A DNA stretch of 64,000 nucleotides from Sulfitobacter sp. F26204 (GTDB lineage Bacteria; Pseudomonadota; Alphaproteobacteria; Rhodobacterales; Rhodobacteraceae). Below are positions 24,406 to 33,029 of this stretch, piece after piece. A program made the translations under genes and the position numbers. The first letter of the stretch is position 1. Each line of letters begins with the position of its first letter. The notes below the pieces were generated by a model, which worked only from the letters and a program-made list of their open reading frames with translations, had not been told where the DNA came from and ran no database searches. The stretch is taken from assembly GCF_026410305.1 (NCBI RefSeq), contig NZ_JAPMLQ010000007.1:186001-250000 (forward strand), written 5' to 3'.

Positions 24406-25182
24406 CTAATCGGCCTGCGCCCTGTCGCTGCTGTACAAGGAAGGTTTATTCGGCACGGCGGATGTGGTGCGCGCCTTTATTTGTTGTGCCAGATAAGCAC
24501 CGATCAGCGCTGATCCCTTGACCGATGGATGGGTGTTGTCGGATGCAAACAATGCCGGATCGTTGCGGTTTATCACATCTTCGGAATCCAGAAATGTGAT
24601 GCCCTGCCGTGACATTGCCCAGCGTGCCAGGCGTTTTTCAATTTCAACCAGATCGTCGCGGCAACCCTTGAACGAGGTCTGGCCCGATCCGGCATAATAT
24701 CCCATCCAAATCACCTGCGCGCCGGTGCTCTGGCGTAACTTTTGGATAAAGGATGGGATTGACCCCTGCATTGCATCAGGGTTGATCAAGGCATCGACAG
24801 TCTGCCCACAGGCGCCGCAGCCACAATCGGCCCCCAGATCATTGGCACCGCCATTGACGACGACCCAGTTCCAGCGCCCACCGGGAAATTGCCGTTGAAT
24901 ATCGAGCCCGACGGCAGCTGCGACCGCGGAAGAATTGTCAAATTGAGCGCCAGGCACGGCCTTGCTTACCACGCGACGGCCCAGGGTTCTTTGCATCGCG
25001 TCCGGAATCGACGCATTTGCCAGGCTGTTCCAGGCCATGATGGAATCGCCTAAAACCAGAATGTCACCGCCGCCGCGCGGTGCCGGATCTGTACATGCAG
25101 ACAGGATGAAAAATACGGGAAGTGTTGCGATGATCCGCAACAAGCGCGACAAGCTGAAGATTGATGATCTGACAGTGTTCAT
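24406..25182 (-). CDS. SGNH/GDSL-family hydrolase lipoprotein
   Basis: The 258-residue precursor begins with a basic signal and a lipobox (FILSAC, Cys29-30), so it should be a lipoprotein. The mature part has the SGNH blocks: LGDSI (catalytic Ser), a Gly in block II, GGANDLG (Asn block) and DNTHPS with the Asp-His pair near the C-terminus. A run of cysteines (CGCGACG) near the middle is unusual for this family. The substrate could be an ester on glycan or lipid. It is convergent with folD. Confidence 0.82.
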   Translation of the reverse strand: MNTVRSSIFSLSRLLRIIATLPVFFILSACTDPAPRGGGDILVLGDSIMAWNSLANASIPDAMQRTLGRRVVSKAVPGAQFDNSSAVAAAVGLDIQRQFPGGRWNWVVVNGGANDLGADCGCGACGQTVDALINPDAMQGSIPSFIQKLRQSTGAQVIWMGYYAGSGQTSFKGCRDDLVEIEKRLARWAMSRQGITFLDSEDVINRNDPALFASDNTHPSVKGSALIGAYLAQQIKARTTSAVPNKPSLYSSDRAQAD

Positions 25183-25459: not shown

Positions 25460-25487
25460 TGAACCAAACCCGGCCCCCGTGCGTAGG
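25460..25487 (+). promoter_or_regulatory. Candidate RpoE-type promoter of rpoH
   Basis: TGAACC (25460-25465), a 16-base spacer and CGTAGG (25482-25487) match, with one difference in the -35 box, the two promoters found between rpoE and the flavoprotein operon. Transcription would start about 25494, leaving a leader of about 40 bases before ATG 25534. Confidence 0.55.
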
Positions 25488-25533
25488 TATCATATCAGGG
25501 AATTTGCAAGGGCAGAAGTTGAAGGGGGACGGG

Positions 25534-26412
25534 ATGGCGTTGGCGAATGTGCGGGAGGTTAACTTTACCCAAACTGCGATGAAGGCGGAAATGCTGGATG
25601 CAGAGACCGAACTGAAGCTTGCTTACGCCTGGCGGGATGATCGTTGTGAGCAATCCCTGCATCGACTGATCACGGCCTATATGCGCTTGGCAATCTCGAT
25701 GGCCTCCAAATTCAAACGCTATGGCGCGCCAATGAACGATTTGATTCAGGAAGCCGGCCTTGGTCTGATGAAGGCTGCGGACAAATTCGACCCTGACCGC
25801 GGTGTGCGGTTTTCCACATACGCCATTTGGTGGATCAAGGCGAGCATCCAGGATTATGTGATGCGGAACTGGTCCATGGTCCGAACCGGTACGACGTCAT
25901 CTCAGAAATCACTGTTTTTCAACATGCGCCGGGTGCAGGCCCGCCTGGAACGGGAGTCAGCCAGTGCGGGCGTAAAGCTGGACGGCCATCAATTGCGGCA
26001 GCTGATTTCAACAGAGATCGGGGTGCCCCTGCGGGACGTTGAAATGATGGAGGGGCGGCTTTCAGGCTCGGACTATTCCCTGAATGCCACGCAATCCTCA
26101 GAGGATGAGGGCCGCGAATGGATTGATGCGTTGGAAGATGAAACCGATCAGGCCGCCGAAACCGTAGGCAATGCACAGGATCGGGAGAAAATCCGCGAAT
26201 GGTTGCTCCAGGCTTTGGTGAACCTGACGGATCGCGAACGGTATATCGTACGCGAAAGAAAGCTGCGCGACCAAGCCCGCACTCTTGAAAGTCTGGGTGA
26301 TGAACTGGGCCTGAGCAAGGAGCGGGTGCGCCAACTTGAGGCAGCGGCCTTTGAAAAGATGCGCAAAGCACTGGAAACGCAAGGGGATGCGGTACAGCAC
26401 TTTCTGCAATGA
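25534..26412 (+). CDS. rpoH2: RNA polymerase sigma factor, RpoH (sigma-32) family, RpoH2-like
   Basis: A 292-residue group-3 sigma factor. It has region 2 (LIQEAGLGLMKAADKFDP, FSTYAIWWIKASIQDYVMRNW), the RpoH box QKSLFFNMRR (124-133) specific to heat-shock sigma factors, and region 4 with the helix LGLSKERVRQLEAAAFEKM. Its nearness to rpoE-chrR and the RpoE-like promoter upstream suggest it is the RpoHII paralogue, which in R. sphaeroides acts downstream of RpoE under photo-oxidative stress. I chose ATG 25534 behind GGGGGA; the in-frame GTG 25459 would lie upstream of the proposed promoter. Confidence 0.88.
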   Translation: MALANVREVNFTQTAMKAEMLDAETELKLAYAWRDDRCEQSLHRLITAYMRLAISMASKFKRYGAPMNDLIQEAGLGLMKAADKFDPDRGVRFSTYAIWWIKASIQDYVMRNWSMVRTGTTSSQKSLFFNMRRVQARLERESASAGVKLDGHQLRQLISTEIGVPLRDVEMMEGRLSGSDYSLNATQSSEDEGREWIDALEDETDQAAETVGNAQDREKIREWLLQALVNLTDRERYIVRERKLRDQARTLESLGDELGLSKERVRQLEAAAFEKMRKALETQGDAVQHFLQ

Positions 26413-26500
26413 TCTGCAACGCCGTTGTCGATCGAGGTGTGTGTTGCCAAAACAACAGTGGCATGGTGCACCGTCCCCGAAGTGCGTTGAAACAGAAAAG

Positions 26501-27136
26501 TCAGATACGGAACAACGGCTGCAGCAACCGTGGCAACAGCGCTGCAAAACGAAGTGGCGCATCTGTTGCGGCGAGGCAGATACATGCTGCGCCGTCGTCA
26601 GCTTTGGGCGAATGTTCCAGACTGTGATCTGCAACTTCCAGATCACCGACGCCAAAACGCCCCGTGCTGTCGCTAAAGCTGCCTTGCAACACCAAGGTGA
26701 GTTCCATGCCGTTGTGACTGTGGTCGGGCACCGCCTGACCCGGCGGGATGTAGAGTAACCTGACAGAGCCTTCGCTCCCTTGCGACAGGATGCTTTGACG
26801 CGCGCCCATTCCGAGTGATTTCCACCGCGGCGTCTGTCCCTTCAATGCCTCCACCACCGGCGAAGGAAAAATTCCCTTGCGTCCGTATTCAGGTCGAGGC
26901 GTGACAGGATGGTCAAGCTGAGACAGGGTAGCGCCTTTGAGGTCACTGGACAGAACTGCCGTCGCGCCGCTTTCCAAGACAGCACCCCCGATTGCCAAAT
27001 GGGCTTCAAAGGTGGCACGGCAGTCCAGACACATCGAAATATGACTTGCAACAACCAATGCGAAAGGGTGTTCCAGCACGCCGGCGGCAAATGCCGCAAG
27101 CAAGGAATCTGGACTATGGTGTGTGATTGCGTTCAT
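26501..27136 (-). CDS. chrR: Anti-sigma factor ChrR (zinc anti-sigma plus cupin)
   Basis: ChrR holds RpoE inactive until singlet oxygen or related oxidants appear. The 211-residue protein has the N-terminal zinc anti-sigma domain with His6/His7, then HISMCLDC giving His32-x3-Cys36-x2-Cys39, and a C-terminal cupin (about 100-205) with His139, His141, Glu145 and His171, the ligand pattern of the second zinc site that senses the signal. It lies one base after rpoE, in the same minus-strand operon, and is convergent with rpoH2. Confidence 0.92.
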   Translation of the reverse strand: MNAITHHSPDSLLAAFAAGVLEHPFALVVASHISMCLDCRATFEAHLAIGGAVLESGATAVLSSDLKGATLSQLDHPVTPRPEYGRKGIFPSPVVEALKGQTPRWKSLGMGARQSILSQGSEGSVRLLYIPPGQAVPDHSHNGMELTLVLQGSFSDSTGRFGVGDLEVADHSLEHSPKADDGAACICLAATDAPLRFAALLPRLLQPLFRI

Positions 27137-27137
27137 C

Positions 27138-27701
27138 TTATCGCATGTCCTTTAACACATGACGTAAACGGTCAAGACCCAACCGGATCCGTGATTTGAT
27201 AGTTCCAAGCGGGAGCCCCATCTCGGTGCTGATTTCCTGATGAGTCAACTCACCCAGATAGGCCTTTTCGACGATCGTGCGCTGCTCGGGAGACAGTTGG
27301 CGCAATGCGGCCTTTAGGTATTCTGCCTCTTGTTCGACGACCAAGACCTCACTGGCGTCAGGTTCGAATACCGCCCCTTTGAACAAATCTTCGGGAACCG
27401 GCCGGCGTTCCTTGCGCAGCAAGTCAATCTGGCGGTTGCGGGCTATTTGATAAATCCACGCCGAGACCTGTGCACGTGCGGGATCAAACTGATCTGCCTT
27501 GCGCCAGACCGTCAACATCACGTCTTGCACAATCTCCTCGGCCTGCGCTGCGCCACTGCCCGAACGCATCACAAAACCTTTCAGGCGTGGGGCAAAGTGA
27601 TCAAAAAGCAGAGCAAAGGCCGCCCGATCCCGGTTATCCCGAACCGCGATCATACAGGCCGTCTGTGTTGAAATGGGGGGAGCAGGCGGCACTTTCGACA
27701 T
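27138..27701 (-). CDS. rpoE: ECF sigma factor RpoE (ECF11 type)
   Basis: A group-4 sigma factor with region 2 (FAPRLKGFVMRSG, QAEEIVQDVMLTVWRKADQFDP, YQIARNRQIDLLRKE) and region 4 (LTHQEISTEMGLPLGTIKSRIRLGLDRLRHVL). Pairing with ChrR identifies it as the singlet-oxygen responsive type. The frame is open to 27773, but the candidate promoter places the transcript start near 27767. ATG 27701 (MSKVPPAPPI), behind AAAGGAT, gives 187 residues, the usual family length, so I chose it. Confidence 0.92.
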   Translation of the reverse strand: MSKVPPAPPISTQTACMIAVRDNRDRAAFALLFDHFAPRLKGFVMRSGSGAAQAEEIVQDVMLTVWRKADQFDPARAQVSAWIYQIARNRQIDLLRKERRPVPEDLFKGAVFEPDASEVLVVEQEAEYLKAALRQLSPEQRTIVEKAYLGELTHQEISTEMGLPLGTIKSRIRLGLDRLRHVLKDMR

Positions 27702-27773
27702 ATCCTTTGTCGCCCGACAACACAGAAGATGGGCACTTGGAACGGAATATAGGTCAATCATCGACATACCCAT

Positions 27774-27801
27774 ACTACGTCCGCAGATAAATTTTGGATC
27801 A
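27774..27801 (-). promoter_or_regulatory. Candidate RpoE autoregulatory promoter of rpoE-chrR
   Basis: On the minus strand: TGATCC (27801-27796), 16 bases, CGTAGT (27779-27774). Its -35 box is one half of the palindrome GGATCA-ATTG-TGATCC shared with the opposite promoter. Confidence 0.7.
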
Positions 27802-27805
27802 ATTG

Positions 27806-27833
27806 TGATCCGAAAACTTTTTCACAGCGTATC
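27806..27833 (+). promoter_or_regulatory. Candidate RpoE promoter of the flavoprotein operon
   Basis: TGATCC (27806-27811), 16 bases, CGTATC (27828-27833). The start site would be about 27840, about 20 bases before ATG 27861, with AAGGAAC as ribosome binding site. It mirrors the rpoE promoter on the other strand. Confidence 0.7.
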
Positions 27834-27860
27834 AGAATAAAACCACTGCAAGGAACAAGA

Positions 27861-29141
27861 ATGTCTTTTGACGCGCCTCCCACAAATACCCAACGCATCG
27901 CTGTCATCGGTGGCGGTATTTCCGGGCTTGCTGCGGCATATCTGCTTGCACCTCAACACGCCGTCACTGTCTATGAGGCCGCACCAAAGCTGGGAGGGCA
28001 TGCGCGTACTGTCATTGCCGGGCGCAATGGTAATCAACCGGTGGATACCGGATTCATCGTCTTCAACTACGCAAATTATCCGCATCTGACGCGAATGTTC
28101 CAAACGCTTGATGTTCCGGTTGTGAAAAGCGACATGAGCTTTGGTGCGACGATCAATGGGGGCGGCATTGAATACGGGCTACGCGACCTACGGTCTTTGA
28201 CCGCACAAAAGCGTAACTTGCTCCGGCCCGGATTCGCACGGATGTTGCGAGACATCTTGCGATTCAATGCCAAGGCTGAAGGTCTGGTCAAGGATGATAG
28301 CACCACGATTGGCGCATTGATGTCCGAACTCAAGATGGGAAGCTGGTTCGAACGCTACTACCTGATGCCCATTTGTGGTGCGATATGGTCAACACCACCA
28401 GAAGGCATTCGCGGCTTTCCGGCCCATGCGCTGCTGCGGTTCTTTCGCAATCATGCATTGTTGAGCCCCAGTGGCCAGCATCAATGGTGGACGGTCGATG
28501 GCGGCAGCACCGCCTATGTGACCCGCCTGGAGCGTCATCTGCGCGGCCAAGGGGTTGTGATCAGAACCGGCACCCCCGTGCAACAGGTCGCGCGTGATGG
28601 TGTACAAAGCACCATTTATTGCGCAGACAGGGAACCGGCTTGCTTTGATCATGTCATTTTCGCCTGTCACGCGGATCAGGCCTTGGGCGTGCTTGCCCGG
28701 CCTACCTTTCAGGAACAAGCAACCCTTTCTGCGATCCGGTTTCAGCACAACCAAATGGTCCTGCATTGCGATGCAAATCAAATGCCGCAACGCAAGGCCG
28801 CTTGGTCAAGCTGGGTCTACAAGGCCGACACAACCCGGCCGGAACCTGTTATCGGCGTCACTTATTGGATGAACCGTCTTCAGAATATCGCTCAGGATGA
28901 TCCGCTCTTTGTGTCATTGAACCCATCAGAAACCGTACCGGAACATTTGATCTATGACCAAAAGCTGTTTCGCCATCCGGTGTTTGACGGGCCTGCCTTG
29001 GCGGCGCAACAGCGCCTGACAGAAATGCAGGGGCACAACAACACATGGTTCGCCGGTGCTTATACGCGCCATGGCTTTCATGAGGACGGTTTCGCAAGCG
29101 CAGTCCGCATTCAACGTCTGCTGAATCGCCAGCTCGCATGA
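27861..29141 (+). CDS. FAD/NAD(P)-binding amine-oxidase-like flavoprotein
   Basis: The 426-residue protein has the Rossmann dinucleotide fold VIGGGISGLAAAYLL (FAD-binding GGGISG at 17-22) followed by VYEAAPKLGGHARTV, typical of the amine-oxidase / phytoene-desaturase-like flavoproteins. The C-terminal FAD segment is FAGAYTRHGFHEDGFASAVRI. In R. sphaeroides the homologous gene sits first in an RpoE-controlled operon linked to furan fatty acid formation, so a fatty-acyl desaturase or oxidase role is a reasonable inference. Its stop overlaps the next start (ATGA). Confidence 0.85.
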   Translation: MSFDAPPTNTQRIAVIGGGISGLAAAYLLAPQHAVTVYEAAPKLGGHARTVIAGRNGNQPVDTGFIVFNYANYPHLTRMFQTLDVPVVKSDMSFGATINGGGIEYGLRDLRSLTAQKRNLLRPGFARMLRDILRFNAKAEGLVKDDSTTIGALMSELKMGSWFERYYLMPICGAIWSTPPEGIRGFPAHALLRFFRNHALLSPSGQHQWWTVDGGSTAYVTRLERHLRGQGVVIRTGTPVQQVARDGVQSTIYCADREPACFDHVIFACHADQALGVLARPTFQEQATLSAIRFQHNQMVLHCDANQMPQRKAAWSSWVYKADTTRPEPVIGVTYWMNRLQNIAQDDPLFVSLNPSETVPEHLIYDQKLFRHPVFDGPALAAQQRLTEMQGHNNTWFAGAYTRHGFHEDGFASAVRIQRLLNRQLA

Positions 29142-29893
29142 TGTACCAACCGCATCATATTGCGGCGGTGACGACGCACAGACGGCGCGGTGAAATCCGC
29201 AACCGGTTCAGCTATGGTGTTGATTTTGTATGGATCGATCCCGAAGCGACGATAGAACAACCAGGCTTGTTCTCGCGTAACCGCTTCAACCTGTTCTCGG
29301 TGCATGACTCTGATCACGGCGGCGCTCTGGCGGCTGGGAAAGGTTCCTCCTGGGCGCGTGCGGTGTTGAGCGCACATGATGTCGACGAATCAACAATTGG
29401 CATGCGTTTATTGACGCAACCGCGTTTTCTCGGCTATGGTTTCAATCCTGTCAGCTTTTGGTTGGCTTTTCGCGATGACGCCTTGATTGCCGTAATCGCC
29501 GAGGTTTCGACCCCCTTTGGCGATCGACATTCCTATCTGTGTCATCTGCCGGAATTTGCCGAGATCACAAACGTTAGCCGGATCACGACACCCAAAGCGC
29601 TGCATGTTTCGCCGTTTCAAGATGTGAAAGGCAGCTATGAATTCAAATTTGATATTCGATCAGATCGCATCGCCATCACCATATTGCACCATAACGGGGC
29701 AGAGGGTGTGATCGCCTCTTTATCCGGTCTGCGCGCCCCCCTGACAAATCGGGGGATATTGCGGGCCAGTCTGCGGCGACCATTTGGTGCACTGCGTGTC
29801 ATGATCTTGATCCATTGGCAGGCGCTCCGCTTGAAACTGAAAGGCGCCAAATACCGCACCCGTCCCAAACCGCCAGAATCCGAGGTTACCTGA
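29138..29893 (+). CDS. DUF1365 domain protein
   Basis: A 251-residue member of DUF1365 (COG3496), which is almost always encoded beside the flavoprotein and a cyclopropane-synthase-like methyltransferase. Conserved-looking parts include the N-terminal RRRGEIRNRFSYGVDFVWID, LTQPRFLGYGFNPVSFW and HVSPFQDVKGSYEFKF. No catalytic residues are established. It overlaps both neighbours (ATGA before, TGATG after). Confidence 0.85.
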   Translation: MMYQPHHIAAVTTHRRRGEIRNRFSYGVDFVWIDPEATIEQPGLFSRNRFNLFSVHDSDHGGALAAGKGSSWARAVLSAHDVDESTIGMRLLTQPRFLGYGFNPVSFWLAFRDDALIAVIAEVSTPFGDRHSYLCHLPEFAEITNVSRITTPKALHVSPFQDVKGSYEFKFDIRSDRIAITILHHNGAEGVIASLSGLRAPLTNRGILRASLRRPFGALRVMILIHWQALRLKLKGAKYRTRPKPPESEVT

Positions 29894-31050
29894 TGCACAT
29901 GTTCACCAAACGCATAAAACATGATTTTTTAGAAAGCTGCGGCAGAATTCAGGTGGGCAGTTTGCACCTGCAAACGCCCGAGGGCGATCTGTATGATTTC
30001 GGTGCCGGCAGCCCTGTCGCGGAAATGCAGATTTATGACTGGTCTGTCGTGACCGCCGTTGCCGCACGTGGAGATATCGGTCTGGGGGAAACCTATGTTG
30101 CCGGTTTATGGGACACACCTTCAATTTCGGCCCTGACTGAAGTCGCCCTGCGCAACGTGGAGCATTTTCAGGGATATATGTATGGCGGGTTCTGGAATAA
30201 TCTGAAATTCCGGTTTGTGAACCGGCTGTTACGAGCGAATTCCTTGAAAGGGGCGTCGCGCAATATTCGTGCACATTACGATGTCGGGAATGAATTTTAT
30301 CAATTGTGGCTGGATGAAGGGATGACCTATTCCTCGGCACTTTTTACCGATGCGGACCAGGATCTGTTTCGCGGCCAGAATCGCAAATACGATCGCATAT
30401 TGGACCGTATCGACAGCGCTGAAACAGTTTTGGAAATCGGCTGTGGTTGGGGCGGGTTTGCCGAGCGCGCGGTCGAAACAGGCCGCCAGGTAACGGGTTT
30501 GACCATTTCGCCCAGTCAAAAAGGCTATGCCGATGCGCGGCTGGATGGCCGCGCCGACATCCGGCTACAGGATTACCGCAAATGCGAAGGAAAATTTGAC
30601 AGCATTGTCTCAATTGAGATGATCGAAGCCGTTGGTCAGAAATACTGGCCGGCCTATTTTGGTACCCTCAAGGCACGTCTGGCAAATCAAGGGCGTGCCA
30701 TGGTGCAGGCAATCACCGTGCCAAACGCGTATTTTGACACCTACCGCAGCACGTCGGATTACATCCGCCACTACACATTTCCGGGCGGCATGTTGCTGTC
30801 GAATGCAATGATTGCCGAACAGGCAAACAGCGCAGGGCTCAGAGTTGTGGATACCTTCGCTTTTGGCGCAGATTATTCGCGCACCTGTGCGATATGGAAT
30901 GACCGTTTGAATCGTATGACAGATCGTATCACGGCGCTGGGCTATGATGAACAGTTCCTGCGCAACTGGCGATATTATCTGGGTGTGTGCTCAGCCTCCT
31001 TTGCAACAGGACAAACCGATGTTGTTCAGGTGGAACTCGCTCATGCATGA
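29893..31050 (+). CDS. Cyclopropane-fatty-acyl-phospholipid synthase-like methyltransferase
   Basis: A 385-residue SAM-dependent methyltransferase. The family signatures are AHYDVGNEFY (127-136), MTYSSALF (144-151) and the SAM loop EIGCGWGG (181-188), with the later YIRHYTFPGG. CFA-family enzymes transfer a methylene or methyl group to unsaturated acyl chains of membrane phospholipids. In this operon context a methyltransferase making methylated acyl chains that are precursors of furan fatty acids is plausible. The ATG overlaps the DUF1365 stop. Confidence 0.88.
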   Translation: MHMFTKRIKHDFLESCGRIQVGSLHLQTPEGDLYDFGAGSPVAEMQIYDWSVVTAVAARGDIGLGETYVAGLWDTPSISALTEVALRNVEHFQGYMYGGFWNNLKFRFVNRLLRANSLKGASRNIRAHYDVGNEFYQLWLDEGMTYSSALFTDADQDLFRGQNRKYDRILDRIDSAETVLEIGCGWGGFAERAVETGRQVTGLTISPSQKGYADARLDGRADIRLQDYRKCEGKFDSIVSIEMIEAVGQKYWPAYFGTLKARLANQGRAMVQAITVPNAYFDTYRSTSDYIRHYTFPGGMLLSNAMIAEQANSAGLRVVDTFAFGADYSRTCAIWNDRLNRMTDRITALGYDEQFLRNWRYYLGVCSASFATGQTDVVQVELAHA

Positions 31051-31780
31051 GGGGCGGACCACATGGATCATCGGGGCAAGCGAAGGCATCGGGGCGGCAC
31101 TTGCCCGCGACTGGGCCAGGCGGGGCACACGAATGATCCTTTCTGCGCGCGGGTCGGGGCGATTGAATGAACTGGCAACAGAATTGGGCCCGGACCACGT
31201 GGCGATTTCAATGGATGTCGGTGACCGCAGCAGCGTTGATACAGCGGTTGCCAAGATTGCCGGCTTGGGTCCCCTGGACCGAATCGTACATTTGGCCGCT
31301 CTATATGATCCTGGCAAGATCGCCGATCTGGACCCTGACACCGCAGCCCAAATCGTGACGGTGAACCTGATGGGCTGTTTTCACATTGCTCAGACGGCAC
31401 CGGGTTTATTGCGCCGGGGCGGTCAATTGGCGTTCTGTGGTTCGGTTGCAGGATACATCGGTCTGCCACAGGGACAGATTTATTCAGCTTCCAAGGCGGG
31501 GGTGATCAATCTGGTCGAATCCCTGCGGGCAGAGCTGGCAGGGCAGATTGATGTCAGGCTGATCTCACCAGGGTTCGTGGATACCCGCCTGACCCAGCGC
31601 AATGATTTCAACATGCCAGCGATGGTCTCTCCCGAGATTGCAGCACAAAGGATCATTGCGGGGTTGGATGGGCGTCGATTTGAAGTGCATTTTCCGCGCC
31701 GTTTGACCTTGCTGTTAAAGCTGCTGCAGACGCTGCCCTATTGGGCGACTCTCCCCTTGACCGGCAGATTGACGAAATGA
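31043..31780 (+). CDS. Short-chain dehydrogenase/reductase
   Basis: A 245-residue SDR. It has the cofactor motif GASEGIG (11-17) and the catalytic set Ser134, Tyr147 and Lys151 (YSASK). The membrane-facing C-terminus is hydrophobic with KLLQTLPYW. ATG 31043 overlaps the stop of the methyltransferase gene, which gives the family N-terminus; the frame opens further upstream inside that gene. The substrate is unknown; operon position suggests lipid modification. Confidence 0.85.
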   Translation: MHEGRTTWIIGASEGIGAALARDWARRGTRMILSARGSGRLNELATELGPDHVAISMDVGDRSSVDTAVAKIAGLGPLDRIVHLAALYDPGKIADLDPDTAAQIVTVNLMGCFHIAQTAPGLLRRGGQLAFCGSVAGYIGLPQGQIYSASKAGVINLVESLRAELAGQIDVRLISPGFVDTRLTQRNDFNMPAMVSPEIAAQRIIAGLDGRRFEVHFPRRLTLLLKLLQTLPYWATLPLTGRLTK

Positions 31781-31861
31781 TCCAGAGCTTTAACCGGATG
31801 AAGGCTGATCGCCATTCATACCCTCAAAAATATACCCGTCCGTGATGAAGGAAACAGTGCT

Positions 31862-32260
31862 GTGAAAATCTTGATCCTGTATATCGTCACGCTGATTTTC
31901 TTTCTTGGGGCTGACGCTTTCGGCCTGCGCTACATCGTGAAACCCGTGTTCGATCGCTATGTTATGCATCTTTATGCAGATCCTTTCCGCGTGGTGCCGG
32001 CCTTGTTGTTTTACCTGGGGTATGTTGCTGGCATGCTTTGGTTTGTCTCGGTACCGGCCCTGCGTGATGGCGATCCCTTGGCCGCTTTGTGGGGTGGTGC
32101 GCTGTTGGGGATGTTTGCATATGGCACATATGAATTCACCAATTTTGCCACACTGCGTGATTGGTCGATGCAACAGGTTGTGGTTGACACGATATGGGGT
32201 GGGCTCTTGACCGGAGTTTCAGCATGGTTTGGTGTCTTGATTGCCCGCATGACGGCCTGA
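31862..32260 (+). CDS. DUF2177 family membrane protein
   Basis: A 132-residue inner-membrane protein with four predicted helices and the DUF2177 marks DAFGLRYIVKPVF and GMFAYGTYEFTNFATLRDWS. The start is GTG 31862 behind AAGGAA. It lies 81 bases after the SDR gene on the same strand and is likely the last member of the RpoE-linked operon. Its function is unknown. Confidence 0.82.
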   Translation: MKILILYIVTLIFFLGADAFGLRYIVKPVFDRYVMHLYADPFRVVPALLFYLGYVAGMLWFVSVPALRDGDPLAALWGGALLGMFAYGTYEFTNFATLRDWSMQQVVVDTIWGGLLTGVSAWFGVLIARMTA

Positions 32261-32357: not shown

Positions 32358-33029
32358 TCACCTTGCGGTGCGCGGCATTGGTATGGCGATAGCGGTCCTG
32401 CCAGTCATCACGGCACAGGCGTCCGGCTGCATCAGCTGGCGAAAGACATTCGACGTGCTGTTCAGACCACCGGTGTAGGTGCCATAGGCGGGCAGGATCA
32501 GACGGTCACGGTCATAGAGAAAGGCGGGCCGCGTGACCCGGCCTCCCCCGATGGCAACAGATACCTTGGGGTGAAAATGCCCCGAGACTTCGCCGCTGGC
32601 ACCCGCAGTTGCAATATGACGAAAGCTTAATTGGGCAATCTGTATCTCACTTTGATGATTGCCCCCCTGATCAATCGGCCCGGGATCATGATTGCCCTCG
32701 ACCCATATCCAATGACGGCCGTGCTGGAGTCTGGTGATCAACAGGCTTTCCTCTGCCCGTAGCGCGCGCGCGGCTTGCGGATCATCAAAACTGTCACCCA
32801 GACATACAACAGTTTGCGCGGCGGTCAGGGCCAGATCGGCTGCCAGTCGGGTCAAGGTGTCGCGGGTTTCATAGGGCGGTAACACTGTGCCGCCGCGCCG
32901 GGCGATGCGCTCTGATTTACCCAGATGCAAGTCGCTGACACATAACAGATGTTTCTCCGGCCACCAGAGCGCCCCGGTATTCAGTGCTTTCAGTTGCACA
33001 CCGGCAAGGGTGAAGTCATGTGCCTTCAT
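32358..33029 (-). CDS. pdeM: Ligase-associated metallophosphoesterase PdeM
   Basis: A 223-residue calcineurin-like phosphoesterase with the full metal-binding set: SDLHLG, GDSFDD, GNHDPG and GHFHPK. This family is named for its association with ATP-dependent DNA ligase and an Lhr-like helicase in a presumed DNA repair cassette. The helicase gene is 65 bases upstream on the same strand. The ligase and exonuclease partners are not in this window. Confidence 0.88.
   Translation of the reverse strand: MKAHDFTLAGVQLKALNTGALWWPEKHLLCVSDLHLGKSERIARRGGTVLPPYETRDTLTRLAADLALTAAQTVVCLGDSFDDPQAARALRAEESLLITRLQHGRHWIWVEGNHDPGPIDQGGNHQSEIQIAQLSFRHIATAGASGEVSGHFHPKVSVAIGGGRVTRPAFLYDRDRLILPAYGTYTGGLNSTSNVFRQLMQPDACAVMTGRTAIAIPMPRTAR

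Follow-up and report, generated by a model that had tools for sequence, protein, structure and literature searches.

Sulfitobacter sp. F26204 closes an operon of furan fatty acid-type genes with a gene for a predicted membrane protein of the anonymous family DUF2177, which raises the question of whether this protein belongs to the stress response encoded around it. The locus lies in a stretch of 64,000 nucleotides, hereafter the window (G000:C25:186001-250000, where G, C and L number genomes, contigs and loci), from a 4.24-Mb genome that is 99.84% complete. Profile searches with Pfam and NCBIfam models identified rpoH2, chrR, rpoE and a five-gene operon in the order flavoprotein, DUF1365, cyclopropane fatty acid (CFA)-type methyltransferase, short-chain dehydrogenase/reductase (SDR) and DUF2177. 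Profiles and positions confirm an earlier note, written from the sequence letters, which had placed these genes together. The island is very probably a variant form of an established module, the ECF11 RpoE-ChrR system for singlet oxygen and furan lipids, with DUF2177 as a regulated accessory part. Most of the module has been published; our comparisons suggest that its new part is DUF2177 as a member of the furan-lipid and singlet-oxygen system. The portions of the literature on this family (COG4852, PF09945) that we consulted name neither RpoE nor furan lipids, and an earlier listing in the extended regulon of Dufour 2008 is possible.

RpoE-type promoters of the island

Three matches to the motif TGAWCC-N17-GTA occur in the window against 0.41 expected, and three or more were found in 1 of 100 shuffles. 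They stand before rpoH2, rpoE and the operon, where the earlier note had seen a shared promoter motif. The sites for rpoE-chrR and for the operon are back to back, and from this one short stretch rpoE-chrR is transcribed leftward and the five genes rightward. As in ECF11 RpoE-ChrR systems generally, a ChrR-family anti-sigma factor is encoded beside an extracytoplasmic function (ECF) sigma factor. In relatives, the region separating ufaD from rpoE held at least one site (spacers of 17 to 19 allowed) in 18 of 22 listed loci, and two of the four misses lacked a usable stretch. For Rhodobacter sphaeroides, rpoHII transcription is reported to depend absolutely on sigma-E (PMC6852236). No space separates the first four genes of the operon, which overlap or adjoin at 29138-29141, 29893 and 31043-31050, and an 81-bp gap precedes DUF2177. 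This gap holds neither a terminator-like site nor an RpoE motif, and DUF2177 is probably transcribed across it from the operon promoter.

A whole-genome scan for the strict form TGATCC-N17-GTA returned 43 matches, and the same pattern reversed returned 1, a control that is unfair because the rare word CTAG lies inside it. Gene context was established for the two strict matches in the window and for one near a photolyase gene, and no regulon list is claimed for the 43. The motif near the photolyase gene was rejected as a promoter for it, since it lies on the opposite strand inside upstream coding sequence. The earlier note had found no photolyase gene (phrA) in the island, and the window as a whole has none: the single PF00875 match of the genome is on contig C20, and the window is on C25.

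DUF2177 in other genomes

Genomes that carry DUF2177 usually carry DUF1365 as well. In the class Alphaproteobacteria DUF1365 was present in 29 of 31 genomes with DUF2177 and 113 of 258 without it (n = 289; Fisher p 3.5e-8), in the family in 82 of 83 and 89 of 115 (n = 198; p 2.6e-6), and in the phylum in 45 of 52 and 82 of 297 (n = 349; p 7e-16), these three samples overlapping in genomes. A hand count of DUF2177 genomes outside the class gave 15 of 16. Where a genome had both genes, their listed positions were no more than 10 kb apart in 9 of 29 cases for the class and 15 of 45 for the phylum; for the family it was 11 of 69, a further 13 genomes lacking a listed DUF1365 position. Such counts are not expected at a rough chance of 0.6% per genome, and contig ends may hide further cases.

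Gene neighbourhoods were compared in the best 80 of at least 592 DUF2177 relatives, the named loci. The nearest named relatives of the window protein, among the matches listed, are from Rhodobacterales, for example Oceaniovalibus, Sulfitobacter, Pseudorhodobacter and Loktanella. The genes ufaD, ufaO and ufaM occurred together in 25 named loci and in three gene orders (A, that of the window; B; and C, in which DUF2177 is not in the operon). Across all fetched loci DUF2177 takes many positions: last in the operon, as in the window; facing either the SDR gene of a chrR-rpoE-SDR cluster or an SDR-ufaM-ufaO-ufaD cluster in reverse; following either a FufM-like methyltransferase gene or chrR; and next to DUF1295. 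When 156 DUF2177 proteins were placed on a tree, in which 5 rows are unlabelled and many forks unresolved, the linked or unlinked label took 12 changes, at least 4 of them forced by starred branches. The earlier note had proposed co-occurrence as a test for both DUF2177 and the SDR. DUF2177 passed it at class, family and phylum level; the SDR did so within the named loci holding ufaO (24 of 25, these loci being chosen by DUF2177 similarity) but accompanied just 3 of 14 linked loci from other families (L210, L211 and L241).

Promoters were sought with a weight matrix whose 24 training sites, all chosen as matches to TGATC[CT]-N17-GTA, lie between ufaD and rpoE, and which was run at a threshold of at least 10 over 156 distinct 150-bp regions upstream of DUF2177 genes, with starts taken from the aligned domain. 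Identical upstreams were merged; L139 (order B, score 3.8) equals L113, so order B counts 7/7 rather than 7/8. At native spacing 43 of the 156 regions scored, against 0 to 5 when the spacer was shifted by -6 to +6 (twelve spacings) and 6 on the opposite strand. Scoring regions preceded unlinked copies (29/104, many of these sites 15 to 40 bases ahead of the start) as well as linked ones (13/47), and 1 of 5 unlabelled regions scored. By set, the fractions were 7/7 for order B, 19/51 for named loci outside orders A to C (including L159, which is beside rpoE-chrR), 8/30 for the class sample, 6/30 for the family and 3/20 for the phylum. Other genes of the named loci scored in 19 of 1,108 cases, compared with 19 of 51 for DUF2177 in the named loci outside orders A to C (p 9e-18). 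By its promoters DUF2177 ranks as a probable member of the RpoE-ChrR regulon, in the window via the operon promoter only. Co-occurrence, linkage and promoters in relatives together uphold the earlier suggestion that DUF2177 is a candidate membrane part of the system.

Two earlier versions of the scan were superseded: one over 220 bp with stop-to-stop controls, in which 7/8 of order B and 18/52 of the unlinked regions exceeded the 99th percentile of the 441 controls, and one with misplaced starts (14/156 at 12 or more), which gave way to the aligned-domain starts. Two genes that no profile matched, at L151:9131-9847 and at L128:5215-5934 (minus strand), also have RpoE-type sites scoring above 20 upstream and are possibly further regulon members or an undetected rpoE.

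Other features of these neighbourhoods were observed alongside. In other families a second, FufM-like CMAS and/or DUF1295 (steroid-reductase-like) lies beside DUF2177, often near chrR, by Pfam at L206:6263-8118, L207:2831-3850, L208:8274-9317 and L212:8321-9355, and by local profiles alone at L226, L242, L244 and L245; such neighbours suggest a larger module with a dimethyl-furan branch. Locus L241 (G762) combines DUF3833, MFS_2, SDR, ufaM, ufaO, ufaD, rpoE, chrR and DUF2177 by local profiles, and so holds both operon variants at one locus. Many unlinked Rhodobacteraceae copies (many of L146, L149 and L152-L205) have a neighbourhood resembling thrS, gloA, thyX and folA, and unlinked DUF2177 often faces an apparent bufferin-type operon (DUF2282, DUF692, DUF2063, DoxX); these assignments come from inspection of the sequences and not from a profile scan.

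Furan-lipid synthesis and the proposed place of DUF2177

In the published pathway, UfaM methylates an 18:1 chain, UfaD (RSP1091) desaturates the product, and UfaO (RSP1090, DUF1365) is needed for the furan ring, which wheat-germ-made UfaO forms with O2; the three are reported to be enough in vivo for the 9M5 furan fatty acid, 9M5-FuFA (Lemke 2020, PMC7380195). The Rhodopseudomonas palustris proteins RPA2571-2570-2569 (D, O and M, numbered consecutively) also make 9M5-FuFA, according to the same report. The window brings the corresponding UfaD-type flavoprotein, DUF1365 and CMAS genes together, as a 9M5-FuFA locus does. Published counterparts account for the flavoprotein, DUF1365, methyltransferase, SDR, rpoE and chrR, and for RpoE control of rpoH2, with window proteins equated to those of R. 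sphaeroides and R. palustris by family, gene order and a stand-in locus (L225) rather than by direct alignment. They also support the earlier note in tying this type of RpoE-ChrR island to furan fatty acids. Its description of DUF1365 as poorly defined is outdated, DUF1365 being UfaO, the O2-dependent furan-forming protein (PMC7380195).

The SDR fared differently. RSP1087 encodes an SDR and counts among the eight genes of the core RpoE regulon (PMC5507510, PMC6852236), and RSP1089-1087 have elsewhere been called Rhodobacteraceae-restricted (PMC3818230). In-frame deletion of RSP1087, RSP1088 or RSP1089 is reported to leave the fatty-acid profile unchanged (PMC7380195), so by the deletion of its counterpart the SDR appears not to be needed for synthesis, and the sufficiency of UfaM, UfaD and UfaO further weakens the proposal that it supplies a missing biosynthetic step.

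Table 1. Genes and RpoE-type promoters of the island, in window coordinates
Feature	Position	Strand	Basis and remarks
RpoE-type promoter motif TGAACC-N17-GTA, for rpoH2	25460..25485	+	
rpoH2 (RpoH-type sigma factor)	25534..26412	+	NF005693, 435.5 bits (cut-off 315)
chrR, cupin-type anti-sigma factor	26501..27136	-	TIGR02451, 182.8 bits (cut-off 124.5)
rpoE, ECF sigma factor	27138..27773	-	Sigma70_r2/r4 domains; adjoins chrR
RpoE-type promoter TGATCC-N17-GTA, for rpoE-chrR	27776..27801	-	
RpoE-type promoter TGATCC-N17-GTA, for five-gene operon	27806..27831	+	
UfaD-type flavoprotein (amine-oxidase-type; predicted desaturase)	27861..29141	+	PF01593, 82.7 bits; heads the operon, as RSP1091 and RPA2571 do
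UfaO-type DUF1365 protein (predicted furan-forming oxygenase)	29138..29893	+	PF07103, 219.4 bits; model with predicted local distance difference test (pLDDT) 95.2
UfaM-type CFA-family methyltransferase (CMAS)	29893..31050	+	PF02353, 242.7-243.9 bits; sole strong CMAS match in genome
SDR, 245 amino acids, RSP1087-type core regulon member	31043..31780	+	PF00106, 129 bits; RSP1087 likewise a 245-residue SDR
DUF2177, 132 amino acids, predicted four-helix membrane protein	31862..32260	+	PF09945, 119 bits (cut-off 26.9); model pLDDT 97.4

The start of rpoH2 in the table departs from that of the earlier note, 25460, which follows a GTG (25459) overlapping the promoter; the match to the rpoH2 profile agrees with a start at the ATG of 25534. 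The gene converges on chrR (25534-27136), and none of the 14 named loci with ufaO, rpoE and chrR had an rpoH2 match above 150 bits in the fetched flanks; this proximity of rpoH2 to chrR may be peculiar to the window. Outside the island lie a GDSL lipase/esterase gene (24406-25182, minus strand) and a gene for a PdeM-type DNA-damage phosphoesterase (32358-33029, minus strand), both apparently unrelated.

Under the favoured explanation, singlet oxygen or organic peroxide would release RpoE from ChrR, and free RpoE would transcribe rpoE-chrR, rpoH2 and the ufaD-ufaO-ufaM-SDR-DUF2177 operon, with rpoH2 spreading the response. UfaM would then methylate a membrane-bound 18:1 chain, UfaD would add a second double bond and UfaO would close the furan ring using O2. 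The furan lipid is destroyed by singlet oxygen, and it is a proposed messenger for ChrR turnover; SDR and DUF2177 would be co-regulated accessory parts. The chemistry and the control by ChrR are carried over here from published relatives, and the gene identities, the shared promoter and the distribution of DUF2177 are read from the genomes themselves. We infer that Sulfitobacter sp. F26204 makes furan lipids.

DUF2177 might instead be a mere passenger that came to lie beside these genes by accident, has since been inherited or transferred, and plays no part in the singlet-oxygen or furan-lipid response. Several findings favour a passenger or otherwise weigh against DUF2177 as an accessory part of a furan-lipid module. 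The co-occurrence p-values overstate independence because relatives share descent, and linkage outside the class was seen in G684 only. In 52 of the named loci no island gene reached an island-type score within the fetched flanks, which in some cases were short, and many unlinked loci have a housekeeping neighbourhood in common. The promoter motif is missing from most upstream regions (113 of 156 fall below threshold), including all 10 of order A, the window's own, and all 8 of order C. Outside the class 1 of 13 scores, weakly (10.7), so the promoter evidence is confined to Alphaproteobacteria, and because its sites were picked with N17 the matrix is blind to other spacings at the training loci. 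The published chemistry has no need of DUF2177; given the deletions of RSP1087 to RSP1089 and the sufficiency of UfaM, UfaD and UfaO, SDR and DUF2177 may both be dispensable. Finally, the genome contains no PF00124 reaction-centre match despite its full RpoE-ChrR and ufa island. A passenger is nevertheless unlikely: linkage recurs across several families and gene orders, RpoE-type promoters precede more than a quarter of the unlinked copies, many of them close to the start, and DUF2177 is among the genes with SAK1-dependent induction reported for Chlamydomonas (PMC4067076). The sufficiency result itself may not have been obtained in a DUF2177-free background, because an unlinked DUF2177 gene is present in Cereibacter changlensis (L189) and Luteovulum azotoformans (L182), both related to R. 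sphaeroides. The upstream regions of these two copies did not score and the motif was not seen in them.

The missing reaction-centre match also qualifies the label of photo-oxidative stress that the earlier note gave the island. The label is fair for the regulation, but the host is not an ordinary phototroph, and singlet oxygen in it would stem from other photosensitisers.

It is also conceivable that the methyltransferase is an ordinary cyclopropane synthase and that the operon protects membranes with cyclopropane rather than furan lipids. It belongs to the CMAS family, and its three best solved relatives are cyclopropane synthases. Of the bicarbonate residues of E. coli-type cyclopropane synthases (C139, E239 and H266, numbering inferred from alignment), the window protein has Ser, Glu and Gln, and so lacks the full set. 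All 34 operon-type copies (the window and 33 relatives) keep Glu239 and have Gln for His266 and Ser or Ala for Cys139. We dropped these changes as proof of a methyl-alkene product, since the cotton enzyme GhCPS1 shares the Ser and the Gln and is reported to make cyclopropane acids in yeast (PMC3132707); the sequence thus leaves the product unsettled, a further point against the furan reading. The position of the gene directly behind UfaD- and UfaO-type genes, as in RPA2571-2569, nonetheless makes a cyclopropane operon improbable. So do the residues common to all operon-type copies and the rank of the gene as the sole strong CMAS of the genome, whose other matches stop at 31.1 and 23 bits; should the organism make furan lipids, the UfaM activity must come from this enzyme. 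In the same report, a pair of Agrobacterium proteins to which the two halves of the plant enzyme are homologous yielded no cyclopropane acid when tried in yeast (PMC3132707), a null result that would fit a furan-lipid role. The N-terminal half of GhCPS1 is described there as an FAD oxidase domain. Operon-type UfaM and GhCPS1, with their substitutions in common, possibly form one bacterial and plant methyltransferase subfamily.

The structure models bear on what UfaO and DUF2177 might do. That of UfaO consists chiefly of beta strands with C-terminal helices, and Foldseek found no PDB match at E 0.001. Its best solved neighbours are barrels, a designed one (Z 7.4, root-mean-square deviation (rmsd) 3.9, 129 aligned) and nitrobindin (Z 7.1, rmsd 4.2, 133 aligned); both fall below Z 8, too weak to count as homology. 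The DUF2177 model has four long helices and likewise no PDB match at E 0.001. The best structural score (VIA Z 5.8, rmsd 3.7, 102 aligned) lies in the chance range for helical bundles, and the resemblances to FtsX (Z 5.8) and LucB (Z 5.5) were not counted as homology. Eight columns are invariant among 38 DUF2177 sequences (D18, A47, Y51, G83, Y87, D109, W112 and G113), and polar residues at like depth in several helices of the model suggest a pocket. A missing biosynthetic step, such as electron delivery to UfaD or UfaO, would suit the invariant D18, Y51, Y87 and D109 in predicted membrane helices and the UfaO reductant, given as unknown (PMC7380195), yet we hold it to be improbable, as recombinant UfaD and wheat-germ-made UfaO are reported to act on liposomes (PMC7380195) and DUF2177 has no clear match among solved folds.

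Because UfaM, UfaD and UfaO suffice, we place DUF2177 after or beside furan synthesis: most likely it serves the handling, repair, turnover or placement of the furan lipid or of its oxidised products, and not the synthesis of 9M5-FuFA. More tentatively, and with doubt on our part, DUF2177 might be a conserved intramembrane enzyme, common to Proteobacteria and green algae, that acts on furan lipids once these have captured singlet oxygen, for example by reducing or rearranging the ring-opened product or by clearing it; the RpoE-ChrR response would then include a recycling or signalling step that has gone unrecognised. The fate of the furan lipid after singlet oxygen and the route of the signal to ChrR are where the protein could matter. 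Its placement in the response in many Alphaproteobacteria turns an anonymous family into a specific and easily deleted candidate.

Comparison with known systems

The window resembles R. sphaeroides in having rpoE-chrR near an RpoE-dependent ufaD-ufaO operon with an SDR (PMC7380195, PMC3818230, PMC5507510) and, as reported, rpoHII under RpoE (PMC6852236). The published descriptions of the R. sphaeroides operon RSP1091-1087 give five genes that, unlike those of the window, include RSP1089 (402 amino acids) and RSP1088 (186 amino acids), lack ufaM and are in no case reported as DUF2177; ufaM is given there as RSP2144, numbered next to phrB (RSP2143). The same-genus genome G154 (L225) has the R. 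sphaeroides kind of arrangement, ufaD-ufaO-MFS_2-DUF3833-SDR. L225 and R. sphaeroides agree in gene number and in a protein of 186 amino acids (RSP1088), and differ slightly in the other two (243 against 245 for RSP1087; 432, start uncertain, against 402 for RSP1089). The UfaO proteins of L225 and the window are 53% identical. In the window, ufaM stands where L225 has the MFS and DUF3833 genes, and DUF2177 is added at the end.

R. palustris RPA2571-2569 has the D, O, M order of the window by consecutive locus tags and, unlike the window, is reported to make a dimethyl furan fatty acid as well, via FufM (RPA0924). No FufM-like second CMAS is present in the window genome, whose next-best match is the one at 31.1 bits, whereas FufM-like proteins beside DUF2177 elsewhere reach 141 to 146 bits. 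DUF2177 also lies beside a light-sensing membrane protein in heliorhodopsin operons, for which the portions consulted state no furan or RpoE link (PMC11109279).

The most distant comparison is with Chlamydomonas, a eukaryotic alga with another regulator, where Table 5 of SAK1-dependent singlet-oxygen genes lists CFA1, CFA2, DUF1365, DUF2177 and DUF1295, and where furan lipid goes unmentioned in the parts consulted (PMC4067076). The families in this list are those found around rpoE-chrR in several of the fetched bacterial loci, and the list, as far as we consulted it, points the same way as the bacterial evidence on DUF2177.

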